Origin: Betaproteobacteria bacterium
Lineage (GTDB): Bacteria > Bdellovibrionota_B > Oligoflexia > Silvanigrellales > Silvanigrellaceae
Direction of reading: 5' to 3'
Length of the DNA stretch: 64,000 bases
Assembly (NCBI GenBank): GCA_016868315.1
Contig: VGHE01000004.1
Location: forward strand, 124,001-188,000
A program made the position numbers and the translations under genes. This document shows, piece after piece, positions 13,379 through 24,523 of this stretch. Below the pieces are notes generated by a model that did no database searches, had not been told where the DNA came from, and saw nothing but the letters and a program-made list of their open reading frames with translations. Numbering within the stretch: the stretch's first letter is position 1; each line of letters opens with the position of its first letter.

Positions 13379-14233
13379 TCAGTGATCGTGATGGGCCGTA
13401 TCAAGAGAGAGACGCACATAAACCGAGCTCAGTGTCATGAAAATGAATGCCTGCAAGCATGCAACCAGTAGACCGAAGGTCAACAGCGCACCGGGCACAG
13501 GCAAGAAAGGAACGTGAAAATCACGCATCAAGGTTGAAAACACATTGAAGACCATGTGGTCACCCGAAACGTTGCCGTAAAGACGCAGGCTCAAGGAAAC
13601 AGGACGCGCCAGTAAAGCAATTAACTCAATGCTGAACATCAGCGGCGCGAGCAACAGCACGGGGCCGCACAGATGTTTTATGTAATTCCAGCCACCATGC
13701 TTCAAGCCAACGTAGTTGAACGCCAAGAAGATAATGAGCGCCATAGCGGCATTTTGACTGATGTACTCTGTTGCGGGAGGGAATCCGGGAACAAGACCCG
13801 AAAGGTTCGCACAAATGATGAAGAAGAATGTGCCGCCGAGCAGGGTTGCATAATGCGTCCAAGCTTTGTCGCCTACAATTTTCTCCAGCGTGCTGCCGAT
13901 GACAGCCCAGCACAGCTCTACAAATGCCTTTACGCCAAAGGACTTCGGTGGAAGAAGATCATCGTCGCTCATTGCCGTTGGCTTAAGGCGATAGAAGCCT
14001 GCGGCCAAGCCAACAACGGTGACAACAATGAAAGCTCCGGCAGAAGAAACCAATTCCTTCAGCACAGCCGTTTCCAGCCCGATTCCAAATATTTCGCGCA
14101 GATGTTCGGCAATAACCGCGTACCAAGACACGATTTGCAGACCACCGCCGCCACCAGCCAAAGCGGGCAGACTCACTGCAGCGACAAAAAAAGCAACCAA
14201 TGATTTGAGCCACGTGCACACGAAGCGACTCAT
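13379..14233 (-). CDS. atpB: ATP synthase F0 subunit a
   Basis: CANLSGLVPGFPPATEYISQNAAMALIIFLAFNYVG, ISLLARPVSLSLRLYGNVSGDH, ACLQAFIFMTLSSVYV. Confidence 0.95.
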   Translation of the reverse strand: MSRFVCTWLKSLVAFFVAAVSLPALAGGGGGLQIVSWYAVIAEHLREIFGIGLETAVLKELVSSAGAFIVVTVVGLAAGFYRLKPTAMSDDDLLPPKSFGVKAFVELCWAVIGSTLEKIVGDKAWTHYATLLGGTFFFIICANLSGLVPGFPPATEYISQNAAMALIIFLAFNYVGLKHGGWNYIKHLCGPVLLLAPLMFSIELIALLARPVSLSLRLYGNVSGDHMVFNVFSTLMRDFHVPFLPVPGALLTFGLLVACLQAFIFMTLSSVYVRLSLDTAHHDH

Positions 14234-14287
14234 GACTTCTCCCTTGAGGCGGAGGTTGAAAACGGCTCTAAAAACAGCGTTGGGTTC

Positions 14288-14548
14288 CTAACGCAGAAGC
14301 TTGCCACGCGCAAGGGTGAGCAAAACAAGGAAAACACCGAGAGATATGAAAAAAGTGAGGATCAAAGACACTAAATTCTGGCGACCTTCCGAGATTGCCC
14401 ACAAGAAACCCCCAACACCAAGAAATTTATAAAGAATTCCCTGGAAAGTGGGCTTCTGTTTGACGACCGCTGCCGTATGACGAAACAAACCCCACGCAAC
14501 CACAAAGCCCGAAACAATGCATGCTGCTAGCAAAACCCATAAAGCCAT
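14288..14548 (-). CDS. small membrane protein, AtpI-like by position
   Basis: 86-aa hydrophobic protein immediately upstream of atpB; TM prediction by eye; homology not certain. Confidence 0.5.
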   Translation of the reverse strand: MALWVLLAACIVSGFVVAWGLFRHTAAVVKQKPTFQGILYKFLGVGGFLWAISEGRQNLVSLILTFFISLGVFLVLLTLARGKLLR

Positions 14549-14823
14549 CAGTGACTTCCGTCCTGTTCGCGCTTCGAAGCATCGCGCTCTGCGGATTTTC
14601 GAGCCAACGATAGGTTCCGAAAACTCGTTAACGTAGCCGTTCCCATGACCACCACATCAATCACGAGCAACACACCGCGACAGCTCGTCAGACCCATTCC
14701 GAAGCTCTGACAAAACTGTTGCCCCTCCGCCTGTTTAGTCCACCAAACAATAAGAACAGCAAGTCCAACCATAGCAACAAGGTTGCTGTAAAGAATTCCA
14801 AACCAGATAAGAAGTTTTCCCAT
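14548..14823 (-). CDS. small two-TM protein, AtpZ/AtpI-type ATP synthase accessory by position
   Basis: MGKLLIWFGILYSNLVAMVGLAVLIVWWTKQAEG...; overlaps the next gene by 1 nt; sits upstream of atpB-atpE. Confidence 0.5.
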   Translation of the reverse strand: MGKLLIWFGILYSNLVAMVGLAVLIVWWTKQAEGQQFCQSFGMGLTSCRGVLLVIDVVVMGTATLTSFRNLSLARKSAERDASKREQDGSH

Positions 14824-14908
14824 TTGGACTTGACCTCCAAGCAGACCCTCTGCACAATCCGGCCCTCACAGCCCCGAACAGATTCAGACAGTCGAGTACG
14901 AGTACACT

Positions 14909-16525
14909 ATGGCGACAATCGAAAAATCGGAAGTCTTCTTTGAAAAGCTCAAATCAAGACTCAAGTCGCTTGGTCTCGGAGACAGCGTTGCCCACTCCAT
15001 TGCGAACCAAGTTGTTCCGGTTAAATTCGACGGTCAAACAATCATTGCAGACTGCAAAAGCCAATTTCACGGAAATCTGATCATCAGCGCCAAAATGAAC
15101 GAGATCATTGAGGTTGCGAAAGATGTTTGGGGACCTAACATCGAATTTTATGTCCGCTCGGAGCCAGACACACTCGCGCAGCAACCACGAAAAGCTAAAT
15201 CCGTGAAATCTGCAAGCTCCATGTCGTTGTTCGACACGAATGATGAACCTGGTAAAAAAGCACAAGCGAATCAATCAAAGAAGAACGACAAAAAAACAGA
15301 ATCAAAATCCACCCTAAATACAGAGAACTTGGTCGCAAAGTCAGAGAAAGGTGAGACGTCTGAGATTGCACCGAAGCCAAAAATATCAACACTGCAAGCA
15401 ACGAAAAACATCAATCAGATTTCAACCCAAATGACCATCACACCCATTGCTTTGGTGGATGACTTCGAAGGAAAAACACCTTCCACCTCTGATACGTCGC
15501 GCTCATTGAACCCGGAATTAACCTTCGCAAATTTTGTGCGCGGGCAAAGTAACTTAATTGCTTATTCAGCGTGTGAATCGATTGCAAAAAACCCTGGAAA
15601 TCTGACCAACCCCGTGTTCATCTACGGTGCGACAGGACTTGGTAAAACACATTTGCTGCATTCAGTGGGCAACGAAATTCTAAGACAAAACCCGACCTGG
15701 AATATCAAATACGTGACCAGTGTCGACTACATGAACGAGCTCATTCAGGCGATTCGCTTTTATAAGCAAGAAGCTTTCCGCAACAAGTATAACCACGTCG
15801 ATGTTTTGCTTGTTGATGACATCCAATTCCTTGAAAGCAAAGATTCAACGCAGCTTGAATTCTTTCACACCTTCAACGATCTCTTTCAAAAGAGAAAGCA
15901 GATTGTAATTACAAGCGACAAATACCCAAAAGACATCCCCAACATTGAAGAGCGCTTGAAAAGCCGTTTCCTCCAGGGATTAATTGCAGACATTGAACCA
16001 CCTGGGTTTGAAGACCGAGTTGCAATTATTGAGACGAAAGCAAAAGCCCTGAATCTGAAACTCACCCGCGATGTCATTTTGCACATTGCAACTCACGTGA
16101 AATCGAACGTGCGTGAAATTCAAGGCATCCTCAACAATCTGGCAATGACTCAGTCAATGACCGGTGCACCCCCGACAATTGAATCCACGAATTCACATTT
16201 ACGCCGCATGATACGCATTCCCACACAATCTCTCGACCTCAATGCGATTCAAAAAGCAGTGGCTGCTCACTTTGGTATTAAGTTAACCGAACTCTTAGCT
16301 CAGGATCGCTCGCAGCGACTGGTCATTCCGCGACATATTGCGATGTATCTCAGCCGCGAACTCTTGGGCTCAGCAACGACAGAAATCGCAGAAGCATTTG
16401 GCCGCAAAAACCATACAACGGTCATGCACGCTGTCGAAAAAGTGAAAGAGCTTATTGAAAAAGATGCATCAACCCGAGCGATCGTGAATGAACTCAAACG
16501 AAAACTCGATCAGAATCTGGTCTGA
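14909..16525 (+). CDS. dnaA: chromosomal replication initiator protein DnaA
   Basis: NPVFIYGATGLGKTHLLHSVGNEI, DVLLVDDIQFLESKDSTQLEFFHTFN, RLKSRFLQGLIADIEPP, LLAQDRSQRLVIPRHIAMYLSREL...AFGRKNHTTVMHAVEKV. Confidence 0.98.
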   Translation: MATIEKSEVFFEKLKSRLKSLGLGDSVAHSIANQVVPVKFDGQTIIADCKSQFHGNLIISAKMNEIIEVAKDVWGPNIEFYVRSEPDTLAQQPRKAKSVKSASSMSLFDTNDEPGKKAQANQSKKNDKKTESKSTLNTENLVAKSEKGETSEIAPKPKISTLQATKNINQISTQMTITPIALVDDFEGKTPSTSDTSRSLNPELTFANFVRGQSNLIAYSACESIAKNPGNLTNPVFIYGATGLGKTHLLHSVGNEILRQNPTWNIKYVTSVDYMNELIQAIRFYKQEAFRNKYNHVDVLLVDDIQFLESKDSTQLEFFHTFNDLFQKRKQIVITSDKYPKDIPNIEERLKSRFLQGLIADIEPPGFEDRVAIIETKAKALNLKLTRDVILHIATHVKSNVREIQGILNNLAMTQSMTGAPPTIESTNSHLRRMIRIPTQSLDLNAIQKAVAAHFGIKLTELLAQDRSQRLVIPRHIAMYLSRELLGSATTEIAEAFGRKNHTTVMHAVEKVKELIEKDASTRAIVNELKRKLDQNLV

Positions 16526-17654
16526 TCGTAATATTTTGGTTTCGCCCTGAAGCTGCGCGATAAATCCTGTCTGCAACAGCCAAGAAAATTTCATCTTCGA
16601 GCAATCCTGAAGCCATGCGCGGGTTAAACAGCCAAACCTGCCAATCGGGTCTGCCAAGGGCAACATCCTCAGCCCAGCGCAACGCTGAGAACAAATCGTG
16701 TGCTAATACTTTGGGGTCGCCCACCTCGGATAAATCCCTATAAGCACCCACCAGTGAAGCTAATCTTTCCAGCTGCCTATTGAAATCGATGACAATAATC
16801 TTTTTGAGTCGCTCGTGCTCCAACGCGGCCGCACTATCAACAGGCTCAGAGACTGTCGCGCTGACCAGCGTCGTAAAAACGTTGGGCGCATAATGAACGA
16901 GCAACTGTCCGGGTGATGCAAGCTGGCTCATATCAGTTTGTGATTTTACGTATCGCTCGACAACACGCACCCGCGCTGCGCCAAGTTCGTTCCGTGGGAG
17001 AAGGCCTGCATCGCACAGGGAACCCAGAATCTGCTCCCGCCCCACTCCTCCTCGACGCAAGACATCCACCGTTTCATCTCCGTTGAGTCTCACAACCGTA
17101 GATTCAATCCCAAAGCCGCAGGCTCCTCCATCAACAATCCACAAGTTATCCACAGAGGGAAAATCATCGTGAACGTGCTGCGCAAGGGTTGGACTCACAT
17201 GGCCGAAAAGGTTTGCGCTCGGCGCCGCCACAGGAACATCACACAATTCAAGAAATCGCTGAGCTACGGGATGTGCTGGGCAACGGAGTCCGACCCAACC
17301 TGTCCCAGCCGACACAGACGGAACAATGAGTGACGAATGGCAGGGCAAGATTAAGGTCAACGGCCCAGGCCAAAAACAACTCCCCAAATTTTCGTGTGCA
17401 CGACGTTGCCATCCAGTGACAGCCGAAGACAGGTACTGTTTGGTGTGAGCGAGTCCCGCACAATGAACGATGAGCGGATCTTGCGCCGGACGACCCTTTA
17501 TCTCAAAAATCCGAGACACTGCGCGTTCGAGCCCAGCATGGGCGCCCAATCCATAAACGGTCTCGGTTGGAAATGCGACCACGTCGCCCGCACGCAGCCG
17601 TGCAGCGACACTTCTCAGTGCTGATTCAGACAAATCTGTAAGAATCTGGGTCAA
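16494..17654 (-). CDS. threonylcarbamoyl-AMP synthase, Sua5/YrdC family with C-terminal Sua5 domain
   Basis: GDVVAFPTETVYGLGAHAGLERAVSRIFEIKGRPAQDPLIVHC, VAAPSANLFGHVSPT, DGGACGFGIESTVVRL, SPGQLLVHYAPN; TTG start at 17654 with upstream GGGAGGGG preferred over GTG at 17702, whose extension lies in DnaA boxes. Confidence 0.92.
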   Translation of the reverse strand: MTQILTDLSESALRSVAARLRAGDVVAFPTETVYGLGAHAGLERAVSRIFEIKGRPAQDPLIVHCAGLAHTKQYLSSAVTGWQRRAHENLGSCFWPGPLTLILPCHSSLIVPSVSAGTGWVGLRCPAHPVAQRFLELCDVPVAAPSANLFGHVSPTLAQHVHDDFPSVDNLWIVDGGACGFGIESTVVRLNGDETVDVLRRGGVGREQILGSLCDAGLLPRNELGAARVRVVERYVKSQTDMSQLASPGQLLVHYAPNVFTTLVSATVSEPVDSAAALEHERLKKIIVIDFNRQLERLASLVGAYRDLSEVGDPKVLAHDLFSALRWAEDVALGRPDWQVWLFNPRMASGLLEDEIFLAVADRIYRAASGRNQNITIRPDSDRVFV

Positions 17655-17682
17655 GCCCCATCCCCTCCCGCAAACAATCCGC

Positions 17683-18060
17683 TGTATCCACAGGTTATCC
17701 ACAAGATGTCAACATAATTAGAAAACGATTCTCTTGCTCTTCCGAGCATCTTCGGTGAGTTATCCACTTCAATTGAAATCAAAAAAATCGAATAAAAGTG
17801 ACATGATAACGAAATGTTAAATGGAATAATGAGGTTGTCCACAAGTTATCCACAACCACCGAACTTTGCCCCTAGGACACTGCTAAAAAATGATCCAAGG
17901 AAACAGGGCTGACCGGGTCTGTGGAGAACCTGTGGACGACCTGTGGATGATCAGTGGACAACTTTGGGTGCTAAAAAATAAAGCATTAAGTTGTACACAG
18001 AGATTGGCAATCATGAACAGAATATGCACGTGTCCATCCACAGGTTATCCACAGCTCACA
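17683..18060. other. oriC: putative chromosomal replication origin (oriC): clustered DnaA boxes with AT-rich segments
   Basis: Exact TTATCCACA at 17695, 17846 and 18045; near-consensus boxes at 17684, 17760, 17835, 17991, 18034; inverted boxes at 17920, 17931, 17942, 17953; AT-rich stretch 17768-17830; lies between dnaA/sua5 and dnaN. Confidence 0.9.
17920..17963 (-). repeat. four tandem 11-bp DnaA-box-like repeats on the minus strand
   Basis: TGTGGAGAACC / TGTGGACGACC / TGTGGATGATC / AGTGGACAACT, start-to-start spacing exactly 11 bp. Confidence 0.85.
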
Positions 18061-18279
18061 TTTCAAAAAAACCCCATCATTATCAATTCTTAAAGCCGTA
18101 CGGAGAGGTTTTCAACAAAAAAACCCTCCCCTACTACTTCAACTACATAAACACACTCAATTTATTCTGAATAAGAGGAGAAGAAGAGCGTGTGGATGAA
18201 TCAACCTGGAAGCTTGTACCTGCGTCTTTACTCATGTAGACCAGAGCAGCAAAAGAAAAGCCATCAAAGGAGTTGAGAC

Positions 18280-19467
18280 ATGCTCTACAACTGCATGCGC
18301 ACTTGCAGTCATGGAAATGATGTTTCCAGTGATAAAGTGTCATCCATTCGTGCTGTCATTGATCGCGACAAGCTTGCCGGCGCACTTGCGGCCGTCACAG
18401 CGGCTCAAGCAGATGGCGATGTCGGTTGGGTTCAATTTCAATTCGCGGGCAACGGCCAAGTTGTGGTCAGCGCTCTGAGTCACAATCTCTCTATTCGCTA
18501 CAGCTTCGCGGCTGATTACGAAGGCGAAGGGGTGTTGAAGGTCTCTGGAAAGCAACTGAACGAATACGTGCGTCAGTTGCCCCCAGAAAAAATCACTCTC
18601 ACGGCTGAGTTGCCGCAACGTCTTGTGGTCAAATGTGGCCGCTCATCGGCCAAACTCCAGCTCGTTCAAGATCAAACACAAACAGACGTTGTTGTTCCAC
18701 AGGATGGAACATCGGTTGTCGTTAAAGGCGACTACCTCGAGCGCTGGGTCAACTCATTCCGTGATTTCGTCTCCACCGATGACACTCGTTTTTACGCCAA
18801 CGGTGCACTGATTTGGGCTGATACGGCACAGGGATTGAATCTTCAGGCTGTCGCATCCGATGCATATCGGCTGGCAAAGGCACAACTCAAAGATGGATTG
18901 CGTGCAGAGCACGTCGAGGACAGCGCTGTTCTCGTTCCAAAAAAGGCACTCGATGAATTGCGTCGTTTGTGCGCAGCAAATCCAGAAATGGATTATCGCT
19001 TGCGTTGGCACGCTGAACGTCTGTTCTTTGCCGTTGAAACAGAAAATTATCTGATGGTTTCGAAGTGTATTCCAGGGAAATATCCTCCCTACACCTCTGC
19101 GATTCCACAGAAGGTCAACTTCTCGGTGAACATCGGCTTATCCCCACTTCTTGAAAGTGTGAAACGCGTTCTTTTGTTTGCCGACAAAAATCGCATCATC
19201 AAGCTCGGCTTCGATGGTCCAGTCCTCGACGTCCAAAGCTTCACTCCTGGCCTCAAAGAAGGCGAAGAAGTGGTTGAATTGGCAGCACCTGTCGAACAGC
19301 CCTTTGTCGTGAATTACAACGGAACGCTCCTAATCGGGATTCTCAATGTCCTGTCGGGAGCGAGCCTTAAGTTTTCCTGGGAGAACGTCAATCGTCCCGT
19401 AATGATTACCGGTGAAGCTGAGAAAGGGCTGGATGTCTTTTATTTGCTGGTGCCGACTCGTTTTTGA
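18280..19467 (+). CDS. dnaN: DNA polymerase III subunit beta (sliding clamp)
   Basis: VIDRDKLAGALAAVTAAQ, KVSGKQLNEYVRQLPPEKITL, LQAVASDAYRLA, C-terminal VNRPVMITGEAEKGLDVFYLLVPTRF; the true start may be the GTG at 18337. Confidence 0.92.
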   Translation: MLYNCMRTCSHGNDVSSDKVSSIRAVIDRDKLAGALAAVTAAQADGDVGWVQFQFAGNGQVVVSALSHNLSIRYSFAADYEGEGVLKVSGKQLNEYVRQLPPEKITLTAELPQRLVVKCGRSSAKLQLVQDQTQTDVVVPQDGTSVVVKGDYLERWVNSFRDFVSTDDTRFYANGALIWADTAQGLNLQAVASDAYRLAKAQLKDGLRAEHVEDSAVLVPKKALDELRRLCAANPEMDYRLRWHAERLFFAVETENYLMVSKCIPGKYPPYTSAIPQKVNFSVNIGLSPLLESVKRVLLFADKNRIIKLGFDGPVLDVQSFTPGLKEGEEVVELAAPVEQPFVVNYNGTLLIGILNVLSGASLKFSWENVNRPVMITGEAEKGLDVFYLLVPTRF

Positions 19468-22045: not shown

Positions 22046-24523
22046 ATGTCACAGATTCAAAGCCAAGGCGTCGTAGGCATCAATATTAACGAAGAAATGA
22101 AGAACGCGTATCTCGATTACGCCATGAGCGTTATCGTTAGCCGTGCTCTTCCCGATGTCCGTGACGGCATGAAGCCCGTGCACAGACGCGTTCTGTATGC
22201 AATGTATGAGCACAACAACGTTTACAACAAGCCCTACAAAAAATCCGCGCGTATTGTCGGTGATGTTATGGGTAAATATCACCCTCATGGTGACTCGGCG
22301 ATTTATGATGCACTTGTGCGTATGGCACAAGACTTCTCAATGCGTTATCCGCTCATTGACGGCCAGGGGAACTTCGGAAGTATCGACGGTGACAGCCCAG
22401 CCGCGATGCGCTACACAGAAGTGCGTCTCGCGAAAATCTCCGAAGCGTTGATGCAATCTCTCGACGAAGACACCGTTGATTTCGGTCCTAACTACGACAA
22501 CAGTGAGCGTGAGCCACGCGTGCTCCCAACACTCTTTCCGCAGTTGTTGGTCAATGGCCAGTCCGGAATTGCCGTTGGTATGGCCACAAATATTCCCCCT
22601 CACAACCTCACCGAAGTTCTCGATGCGCTCATTCATCTTGTTGACAATGAAAATGCATCCATCGATCAACTGATGGGATTCGTGAAGGGTCCTGATTTCC
22701 CTACTGCAGGTATGATCTGTGGGTTGAAGGGTATCCATGATGCGTATCGCACAGGCCGCGGCTCTATCTCGGTGCGTGGCCGTGCCAGCGTCGAGCAGGT
22801 TAAAGGCGGGCGCGAACAAATTATCATCACGGAGCTGCCCTATCAGGTCAACAAGGCAACCCTTATTGAGCGTATCGCTGAGCTGGTTAAAGATGAGGAA
22901 ATTACAGGAATTTCCGACATCCGTGACGAGTCCAATAAGGAAGGTATTCGTATCGTTATTGAAGTGAAGAAGGGTGAGAACGGTGAAATCCTGCTCAACC
23001 ATCTCTACAAACGTACGCGTCTCCAAGACTCGTTTGGCGTCAACATGGTGTGTATTGTTCGCGGAATTCCTAAGCTCGTGAACCTTAAGGAAGCACTGTC
23101 ACACTTCGTTGACCACCGCTATGAAGTCATCACTCGCCGCACGAGTTTCCGCTTGAGGAAGGCGGAAGAGCGCCTGCATATTTTGGAAGGTTTGAAGATT
23201 GCGGTCGACAACCTCGATGAGACCATTGACCTTATCCGCAAGGCTCCCAGCCCTGATGAGGCTAAAGAAAAGCTCATTGCGCGGTTCTCTTTGAGCGAAC
23301 GCCAGGCAACAGCAATTCTGGAGATGCGTTTGTCACGCATCACCGGCCTTGAACGCGACAAGATTGTTGCGGAGCATGCCGAAATCCTTGTGACGATTGC
23401 TGACCTCAAAGATATTCTCGCTAAACCTGCGCGTGTAGCGGCAATTGCGCGAGAAGAGTTCGTTGCTCTGCGCGAATCACATGGCGATAATCGTCGCACT
23501 GAAATCACAACCGATGCAGGCGACGTTGATCTCGAGTCACTGGTTCCCCCTGCTGATGTCTTCGTGACTTTCTCGCAAGGTGGTTACATCAAGCGCGTGC
23601 TCCAAGATGAATTCCGTTCACAGCACCGCGCTGGTAAAGGTAAAACCGGAGCCGCGTTAAAAGACTCCGACTTCGTCAAAGTAACCTTCCGTGCTCACAC
23701 GCACGACAACGTTTTGATGTTCTCCAACTTCGGCAAGGTCTATTGCTTCAAGGTCTATGAACTCCCGGAAGCTCCAGCTAATGGTCGTGGGAAGTCTATT
23801 GCTCAGATCCTGACTCTCCAGTCGGGCGAGCAAATCACAACCATGCTTCCTGTGAACGAGTTCTCCGAGAACATGTGCGTGTTCATGTGTACATCGCAAG
23901 GTACGGTCAAGAAGACTGAGCTCTCTGCGTTCGCAAACATTCGTGCGACCGGCTTGCGTGCTGTGACGCTCGATGACGGCGATGCCCTTGTTGCCGTGCG
24001 CATTACAAACGGCAAAAACCAAATGATCCTTACGAGCGCTAACGGGAAGGCGATTCGCTTCAACGAAGACGAAGTGCGCTCGATGGGACGCACGGCTCGT
24101 GGTGTAACGGGAATTAATCTCGAAGATGGCGACTCTGTCGTTGCTGCCGAGGCGGTCGATGCAGGAGCAAGCGATAAGCTTCTGGTTGTTACTGAATTTG
24201 GCTACGGCAAGCGCAGTGAACTTGAAGAATACCGTCTCACCGGTCGTGCGGGCAAAGGCGTAAACGCCATTCGAGTGACCGAACGGAACGGCAAAGTTGT
24301 AGCCTTGCTATCGGTGTCTGATGCGGCTGACCTCATGCTCACGACCAACACCGGTCGCGTTCTGCGTATCCACACCAAGAGCGTCAAGGTCATCGGTCGT
24401 CTCACACAGGGCGTATGCTTGATGAGAATTCTCGATGGTGAACGCGTCGTTTCTGTGTCTAAGCCGAGTGAGTTTGACGAAACTCCAGTGACTCAGCTCG
24501 AGGCTGCCGAGGAGATTGAATAA
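22046..24523 (+). CDS. gyrA: DNA gyrase subunit A
   Basis: [72 protein letters not shown]-terminal GyrA blades. Confidence 0.98.

Follow-up and report, generated by a model that had tools for sequence, protein, structure and literature searches.

We conclude that the DNA between a Sua5 gene and dnaN in the window (the whole 64,000-nucleotide stretch analysed here) is, judged from its sequence, the chromosomal oriC. Very probably it is the origin of a Silvanigrellaceae-like (Oligoflexia) bacterium, in which doublets of DnaA boxes would be parts of a DnaA-oligomerisation scaffold and a DnaA-trio element at 18131 would be the site of opening. The feature itself is of a known type: head-to-tail rows of DnaA boxes spaced by 11 bp have already been described in E. 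coli and other bacteria. A brief literature search found no published anatomy of an origin from the Oligoflexia/Silvanigrellales. The genes, boxes and candidate unwinding elements of the locus are listed below; boxes were scanned for on both strands, allowing up to 2 mismatches to TTATCCACA.

14909-16525, plus strand: dnaA, 538 aa, with the ATPase domain and the C-terminal box-binding domain (Pfam)
16494-17702, minus strand: ORF for the threonylcarbamoyl-AMP synthase Sua5/YrdC, lying between dnaA and the boxes (Pfam)
17135-17154, plus strand: doublet S, CAATCCACA-AG-TTATCCACA, boxes at 17135 and 17146, within the Sua5 coding sequence
17684-17703, plus strand: doublet A, GTATCCACA-GG-TTATCCACA, boxes at 17684 and 17695
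17706-17714, plus strand: weak third box ATGTCAACA, in the same 11-bp register as doublet A
17760-17768, plus strand: single box TTATCCACT; TTATCCACA in the congener G002, absent from the congener G001
17769-17830, plus strand: left AT-rich stretch, proposed as the unwinding element by the sequence-only reading (which gave it as 17768-17830)
17835-17854, plus strand: doublet B, TTGTCCACA-AG-TTATCCACA, boxes at 17835 and 17846
17920-17961, minus strand: row M, four boxes, TTGTCCACT, TCATCCACA, TCGTCCACA and TTCTCCACA (5' to 3' on the minus strand)
17991-17999, plus strand: single box TTGTACACA, its position kept in 10 of 10 genomes
18034-18053, plus strand: doublet C, CCATCCACA-GG-TTATCCACA, boxes at 18034 and 18045
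18109-18117, plus strand: box TTTTCAACA, adjoining the trio element; the sister genus has TTATCCACA here
18118-18130, plus strand: 13-bp spacer from box to trios
18131-18180, plus strand: DnaA-trio element CTACTACTTCAACTAC and AT-rich flank, the predicted unwinding element
18191-18199, minus strand: single box TCATCCACA close to dnaN, kept throughout the genus
18280-19467, plus strand: dnaN, DNA polymerase III beta clamp (Pfam)

The assignment of oriC to this place, already proposed by the sequence-only reading, is borne out by synteny, box density, a nearby GC-skew minimum and the conserved trio element. Pfam identified DnaA, Sua5, DnaN, GyrB and ATP synthase subunit a in the window. The order atpB(-)-dnaA(+)-Sua5(-)-boxes-dnaN(+)-gyrB(+) is kept in 10 genomes from two genera, namely the window's own genome, two congeners (G001 and G002) and seven members of one sister genus, and the cluster of DnaA boxes lies close to dnaA and dnaN. 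GC skew, computed on the window's 272-kb contig alone, switches sign at ~18-25 kb of the window and reaches its minimum at 22,670, inside a flat zone and ~4.6 kb rightward from the boxes; the minimum is local to the predicted origin. In the relative G010, which consists of one contig of 2,806,830 bp, base 1 lies inside this same origin. We considered and rejected a bipartite origin with boxes upstream of dnaA, as positions 14201-14950 hold just two 2-mismatch boxes and no cluster. No RNA family was found in the region, and scans of it for promoters and terminators gave no clear excess over shuffled sequences. The opposite-strand Sua5 gene sits between dnaA and oriC/dnaN in all ten genomes of the family (14909-18280 in the window).

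The three doublets first described at 17684/17695, 17835/17846 and 18034/18045 are all present exactly as written. Our scan adds doublet S, row M, the third box at 17706 and single boxes at 17760, 17991 and 18109 (plus strand) and 18191 (minus strand). The accompanying claim, that a weak box comes before every exact one, is true of the four exact boxes at this locus, yet weak boxes are not confined to such pairs, the minus-strand row having no exact box. The boxes of row M begin at 17920, 17931, 17942 and 17953, so that every step is 11 bp. The locus thus holds same-orientation boxes in rows, 11 bp start to start, which is the 2-bp-gap array of the E. coli type, and two opposed sets of rows, with the minus row at 17920-17961 set against the plus rows in an arrangement conserved in the family.

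These doublets are not a product of chance, because both the matches to their core and the number of phased pairs far exceed expectation. Allowing up to 2 mismatches, the core TCCACARGTTATCCACA has 6 matches in the window against 0.01 expected, and there are seven same-strand pairs at 11 bp, where the maximum at any single spacing was 5 in 20,000 random placements. For comparison, if bases are uniform, the chance that any one fixed offset carries a box with up to 2 mismatches is p = 0.0013. Pattern searches of the genome (3.24 Mb) found five exact matches to TCCACARGTTATCCACA, four of them at this locus. The same kind of search, which the sequence-only reading had proposed as a comparison with background, found 23 exact copies of TTATCCACA, of which 4 fall within ~900 bp at oriC.

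Pairing at 11 bp extends beyond the origin. Among the 19 exact boxes outside oriC, six have a partner (up to 2 mismatches) at exactly 11 bp, and all other offsets within 60 bp combined contribute 3 partners. The test of whether doublets also occur elsewhere therefore goes against a module confined to the origin; because 6 of 19 outside boxes are paired in this way, the 11-bp pair is, from its distribution in the genome, a general form of DnaA target rather than an origin-only one. We rejected the idea that the outside pairs make up a replication regulon, since their neighbours (rimP-like/UPF0102, YmdB and NUDIX/HIT, DUF1853, trypsin-like, the end of rpsI) have no clear replication theme. At one outside site, L125:4326-4450 (G000:C1:301325-301446), two exact boxes are separated by ~100 bp, and the second has a partner at 11 bp; the site, flanked by a rimP-like/nusA operon and a UPF0102 gene, may be a DnaA-dependent control site.

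It is conceivable, though on balance we think it rather unlikely, that some doublets (A at the 5' end of Sua5, S, and those outside oriC) serve chiefly as regulatory or titration sites for DnaA and not in origin opening. The frequency of 11-bp partners outside oriC, which resembles the E. coli DnaA regulon, is in keeping with such a role, as is the overlap of doublet A with a possible GTG start of Sua5 at 17702, the true start of that gene being uncertain. So is the placing of doublet S, which lies 549 bp from doublet A here and 554-556 bp from it in both congeners, a range of 549-556 bp in three genomes; Sua5 is only 52-59% identical among these genomes, and doublet S is nonetheless kept. It is absent from the sister genus (seven genomes compared). 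Against a chiefly regulatory role, doublets A and B lie inside the oriC cluster, A has a counterpart in 10 of 10 genomes, and the outside pairs are mostly intragenic, in genes without a clear link to replication. On its other strand doublet S (17135-17154) encodes VDNLWI.

Comparison with relatives separates what is conserved in the predicted scaffold from what is not. When same-strand box pairs are counted across the ten genomes, 61 are spaced by 11 bp, 34 by 22 bp and 8 by 12 bp; spacings of 9, 10 and 13-15 bp do not occur. The 11-bp rows, including the minus-strand row, occupy orthologous positions in all ten; the minus row has four boxes at 11-12 bp spacing in nine, and in the remaining genome, G002, three of its boxes stay within 2 mismatches and the fourth position has 3 mismatches. 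Class-wide, the pattern TCCACA-N(0-20)-TTATCCACA has 143 matches in 42 of 56 genomes, with a gap of 2 bp in 74 and of 3 bp in 34, and the reversed control pattern has 3 matches. Hence the proposed 11-bp, same-orientation phasing, for which an alignment of relatives had been suggested as a check, holds throughout the family sample and is enriched across the class.

The same comparison does not uphold two further proposals, namely that weak/strong alternation organises the boxes and that the RG linker is retained. Doublet A is unchanged (GTATCCACA followed by TTATCCACA) in both congeners, with its third box conserved as ATGTCAACA or GTGTCAACA, but the orthologous doublet in the sister genus is strong-strong, TTATCCACA/TTATCCACA, in 7 of 7 genomes, and the counterpart of doublet C there is the end of a row of 3-4 boxes. 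Doublet B is the most variable: its spacing is 12 bp in G002, the sister genus has two strong boxes 22 bp apart, and G001 lacks it. Linkers of 2 bp across the class include CG, AG, TG, GG, GC and others, so that RG is a local feature. Because of these sister-genus boxes and class-wide linkers, the conserved feature is, as far as the aligned sequences go, head-to-tail phasing in which boxes are 2 bp (sometimes 3 bp) apart, and not weak/strong polarity or the RG linker. The suggestion that paired DnaA molecules sit on the same helical face is compatible with this spacing, for which the documented reasons are the tolerance of 2-3 bp and the head-to-tail AAA+ contact.

These observations also bear on whether the weak/strong doublet is itself the functional unit, its asymmetry (weak 5', strong 3') having been favoured by selection as a device for cooperative loading. 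A weaker box does stand 11 bp upstream of each of the four exact boxes here, doublet A keeps its GTATCCACA/TTATCCACA form in the congeners, and E. coli purH is also weak-then-strong, with a 3-bp gap (PMC11317965). In addition to the sister-genus layouts, however, row M contains no strong box, and raising the weak purH box to consensus caused no significant change in binding (PMC11317965). We consider selection for this asymmetry unlikely. Rather, 11-bp phasing and the DnaA-trio have outlasted deep divergence, over which box strength and linkers have drifted, suggesting that geometry is constrained and strength is free. As the two sister genera present one layout in a strong and a weak version, the role of weak boxes could be tested.

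In the C-terminal domain of DnaA (GRKNHTTVMH), the three genomes of this genus have Asn at the position equivalent to E. coli Asp433, whereas the sister genus and the majority of relatives have Asp. A class-wide motif search found Asn in 4 of the 27 genomes with a readable signature; three are this genus and the fourth, G025, belongs to another family. Asp433 of E. coli has been described as highly conserved and contacts box position 7 (PMC8235120). The boxes here retain A at position 7, and the sequence does not by itself link the Asn to the boxes. We offer only as a speculation, and a distinctly unlikely one, that the origin of this genus was retuned, with the Asp433 equivalent changed to Asn, many boxes decayed from perfect to weak at constant 11-bp phase, and doublet S recruited as an outlying control site. 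If that were so, comparing this genus with its strong-box sister would amount to a natural experiment on the way in which box strength, at fixed phasing, sets the timing of initiation.

For the site of opening, we applied the rule that three or more NAN trios should stand 0-16 bp from a DnaA box (up to 2 mismatches). The box at 18109, with up to 2 mismatches, is followed by a 13-bp spacer and by the trios CTACTACTT at 18131, as in the basal unwinding system. The element CTACTACTTCAACTAC, which is the complement of 3'-GAT-GAT-GAA, begins 13 bp after the 18109 box TTTTCAACA. The motif CTACTACT is found at the same place in 10 of 10 genomes, 13-14 bp past a box, and has one match per strand in the 272 kb of the window's contig. 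The box-spacer-CTACTACT arrangement also occurs in six genomes of other families of the class, lying between dnaA and dnaN in G017 and G019. Counting against the element, the window's genome has just three clean repeats, the adjoining box TTTTCAACA has 2 mismatches, and the raw trio score is higher for a pyrimidine-rich run read off from the 18191 box on the minus strand.

The alternative is that the left stretch at 17769-17830, beside the box at 17760 and flanked by doublets A and B, is the main unwinding element. In terms of nearest-neighbour stability, positions 17781-17830 are the least stable 50 bp of the locus and fall in the lowest 0.02% of the window, with 18131-18180 second within the locus, and the left stretch is AT-rich in G002 and the sister genus too. 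In G001, however, ~140 bp of the interval from doublet A to the minus row is missing, the left stretch and doublet B included; the 76-bp gap found there nowhere exceeds 53% AT over 40 bp, and the trio is retained. Furthermore, there is no conserved trio motif across the family in the left stretch, and the DnaA-trio is conserved on the right. We therefore judge it very unlikely that the left stretch is the main unwinding element, and the original proposal for it is probably wrong. Because the trio is present in 10 of 10 genomes and the left stretch is missing from G001, the box-spacer-trio arrangement at 18109-18139 is probably the better unwinding candidate, with the left stretch as a possible auxiliary. 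The break in G001 (L126, G001:C208) lies near repeated box sequences, and could be a natural deletion or a misassembly.

That the repeats are neutral remnants of tandem duplication of a 20-bp unit can be dismissed, since, although RG linkers are common to the doublets within this genome, the doublet flanks are unrelated, the rows lie on both strands, and the phase is kept while linkers change over deep divergence (DnaA ~48% identical).

In the scaffold that we favour, same-orientation boxes 2 bp apart would let neighbouring ATP-DnaA molecules bind head to tail. Perfect boxes would be occupied by DnaA first, and adjoining weak boxes would then be filled cooperatively, in a manner presumed from E. 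coli to depend on ATP-DnaA. Two filaments facing each other would form, one on the plus-strand rows and one on the minus-strand row opposed to them. The 18109 box and spacer would pass DnaA onto the trios at 18131, and the AT-rich DNA would open toward dnaN. Box positions, phasing, conservation, the trio element and gene order are read from the sequence; we infer the binding order, ATP dependence and opening site from homology.

The closest parallel for the phased rows is E. coli oriC, where eight weak sites in two clusters with 2-bp gaps are filled only from adjacent occupied sites (PMC6070618). The rows described here resemble its low-affinity R1-R4 arrays in that weak boxes of one orientation follow each other every 11 bp, leaving gaps of 2 bp, and share with them two opposed rows, strong boxes as presumed anchors and an unwinding element at one end (PMC6070618, PMC4285127). 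Unlike in E. coli oriC, strong boxes recur here beside weak ones in several short rows, there are extra plus-strand doublets beyond the minus row, the unwinding element is of the DnaA-trio type, and the neighbourhood is dnaA/Sua5/dnaN. E. coli DnaA in vivo prefers box pairs 2-3 bp apart, as determined by ChIP-seq, and the doublets resemble such tandem double boxes, for example that of purH, where the upstream box is weak and the downstream one perfect (PMC11317965); the E. coli double boxes outside oriC regulate genes, whereas the pairs here are mostly in the origin. In Thermotoga maritima, DnaA dimer formation in vitro is maximal for two same-orientation boxes 2 bp apart, and boxes 3-5 of its oriC likewise combine same orientation and a 2-bp gap with trio-type repeats in the unwinding element (PMC10316083), although that origin has fewer boxes and another overall layout. 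The box-spacer-DnaA-trio basal unwinding system has been published for B. subtilis and many bacteria (PMC8287927), and the C. difficile trio is CACCTACTACTATTACTACTATGA (PMC7561715). The window differs from that system in the 2 mismatches of its trio-adjacent box and in having three clean trios only, but it shares with the B. subtilis system and with C. difficile oriC2 a box, a 13-14 bp spacer, CTACTACT(ACT) trios and a position in the interval from box cluster to dnaN (PMC8287927, PMC7561715).
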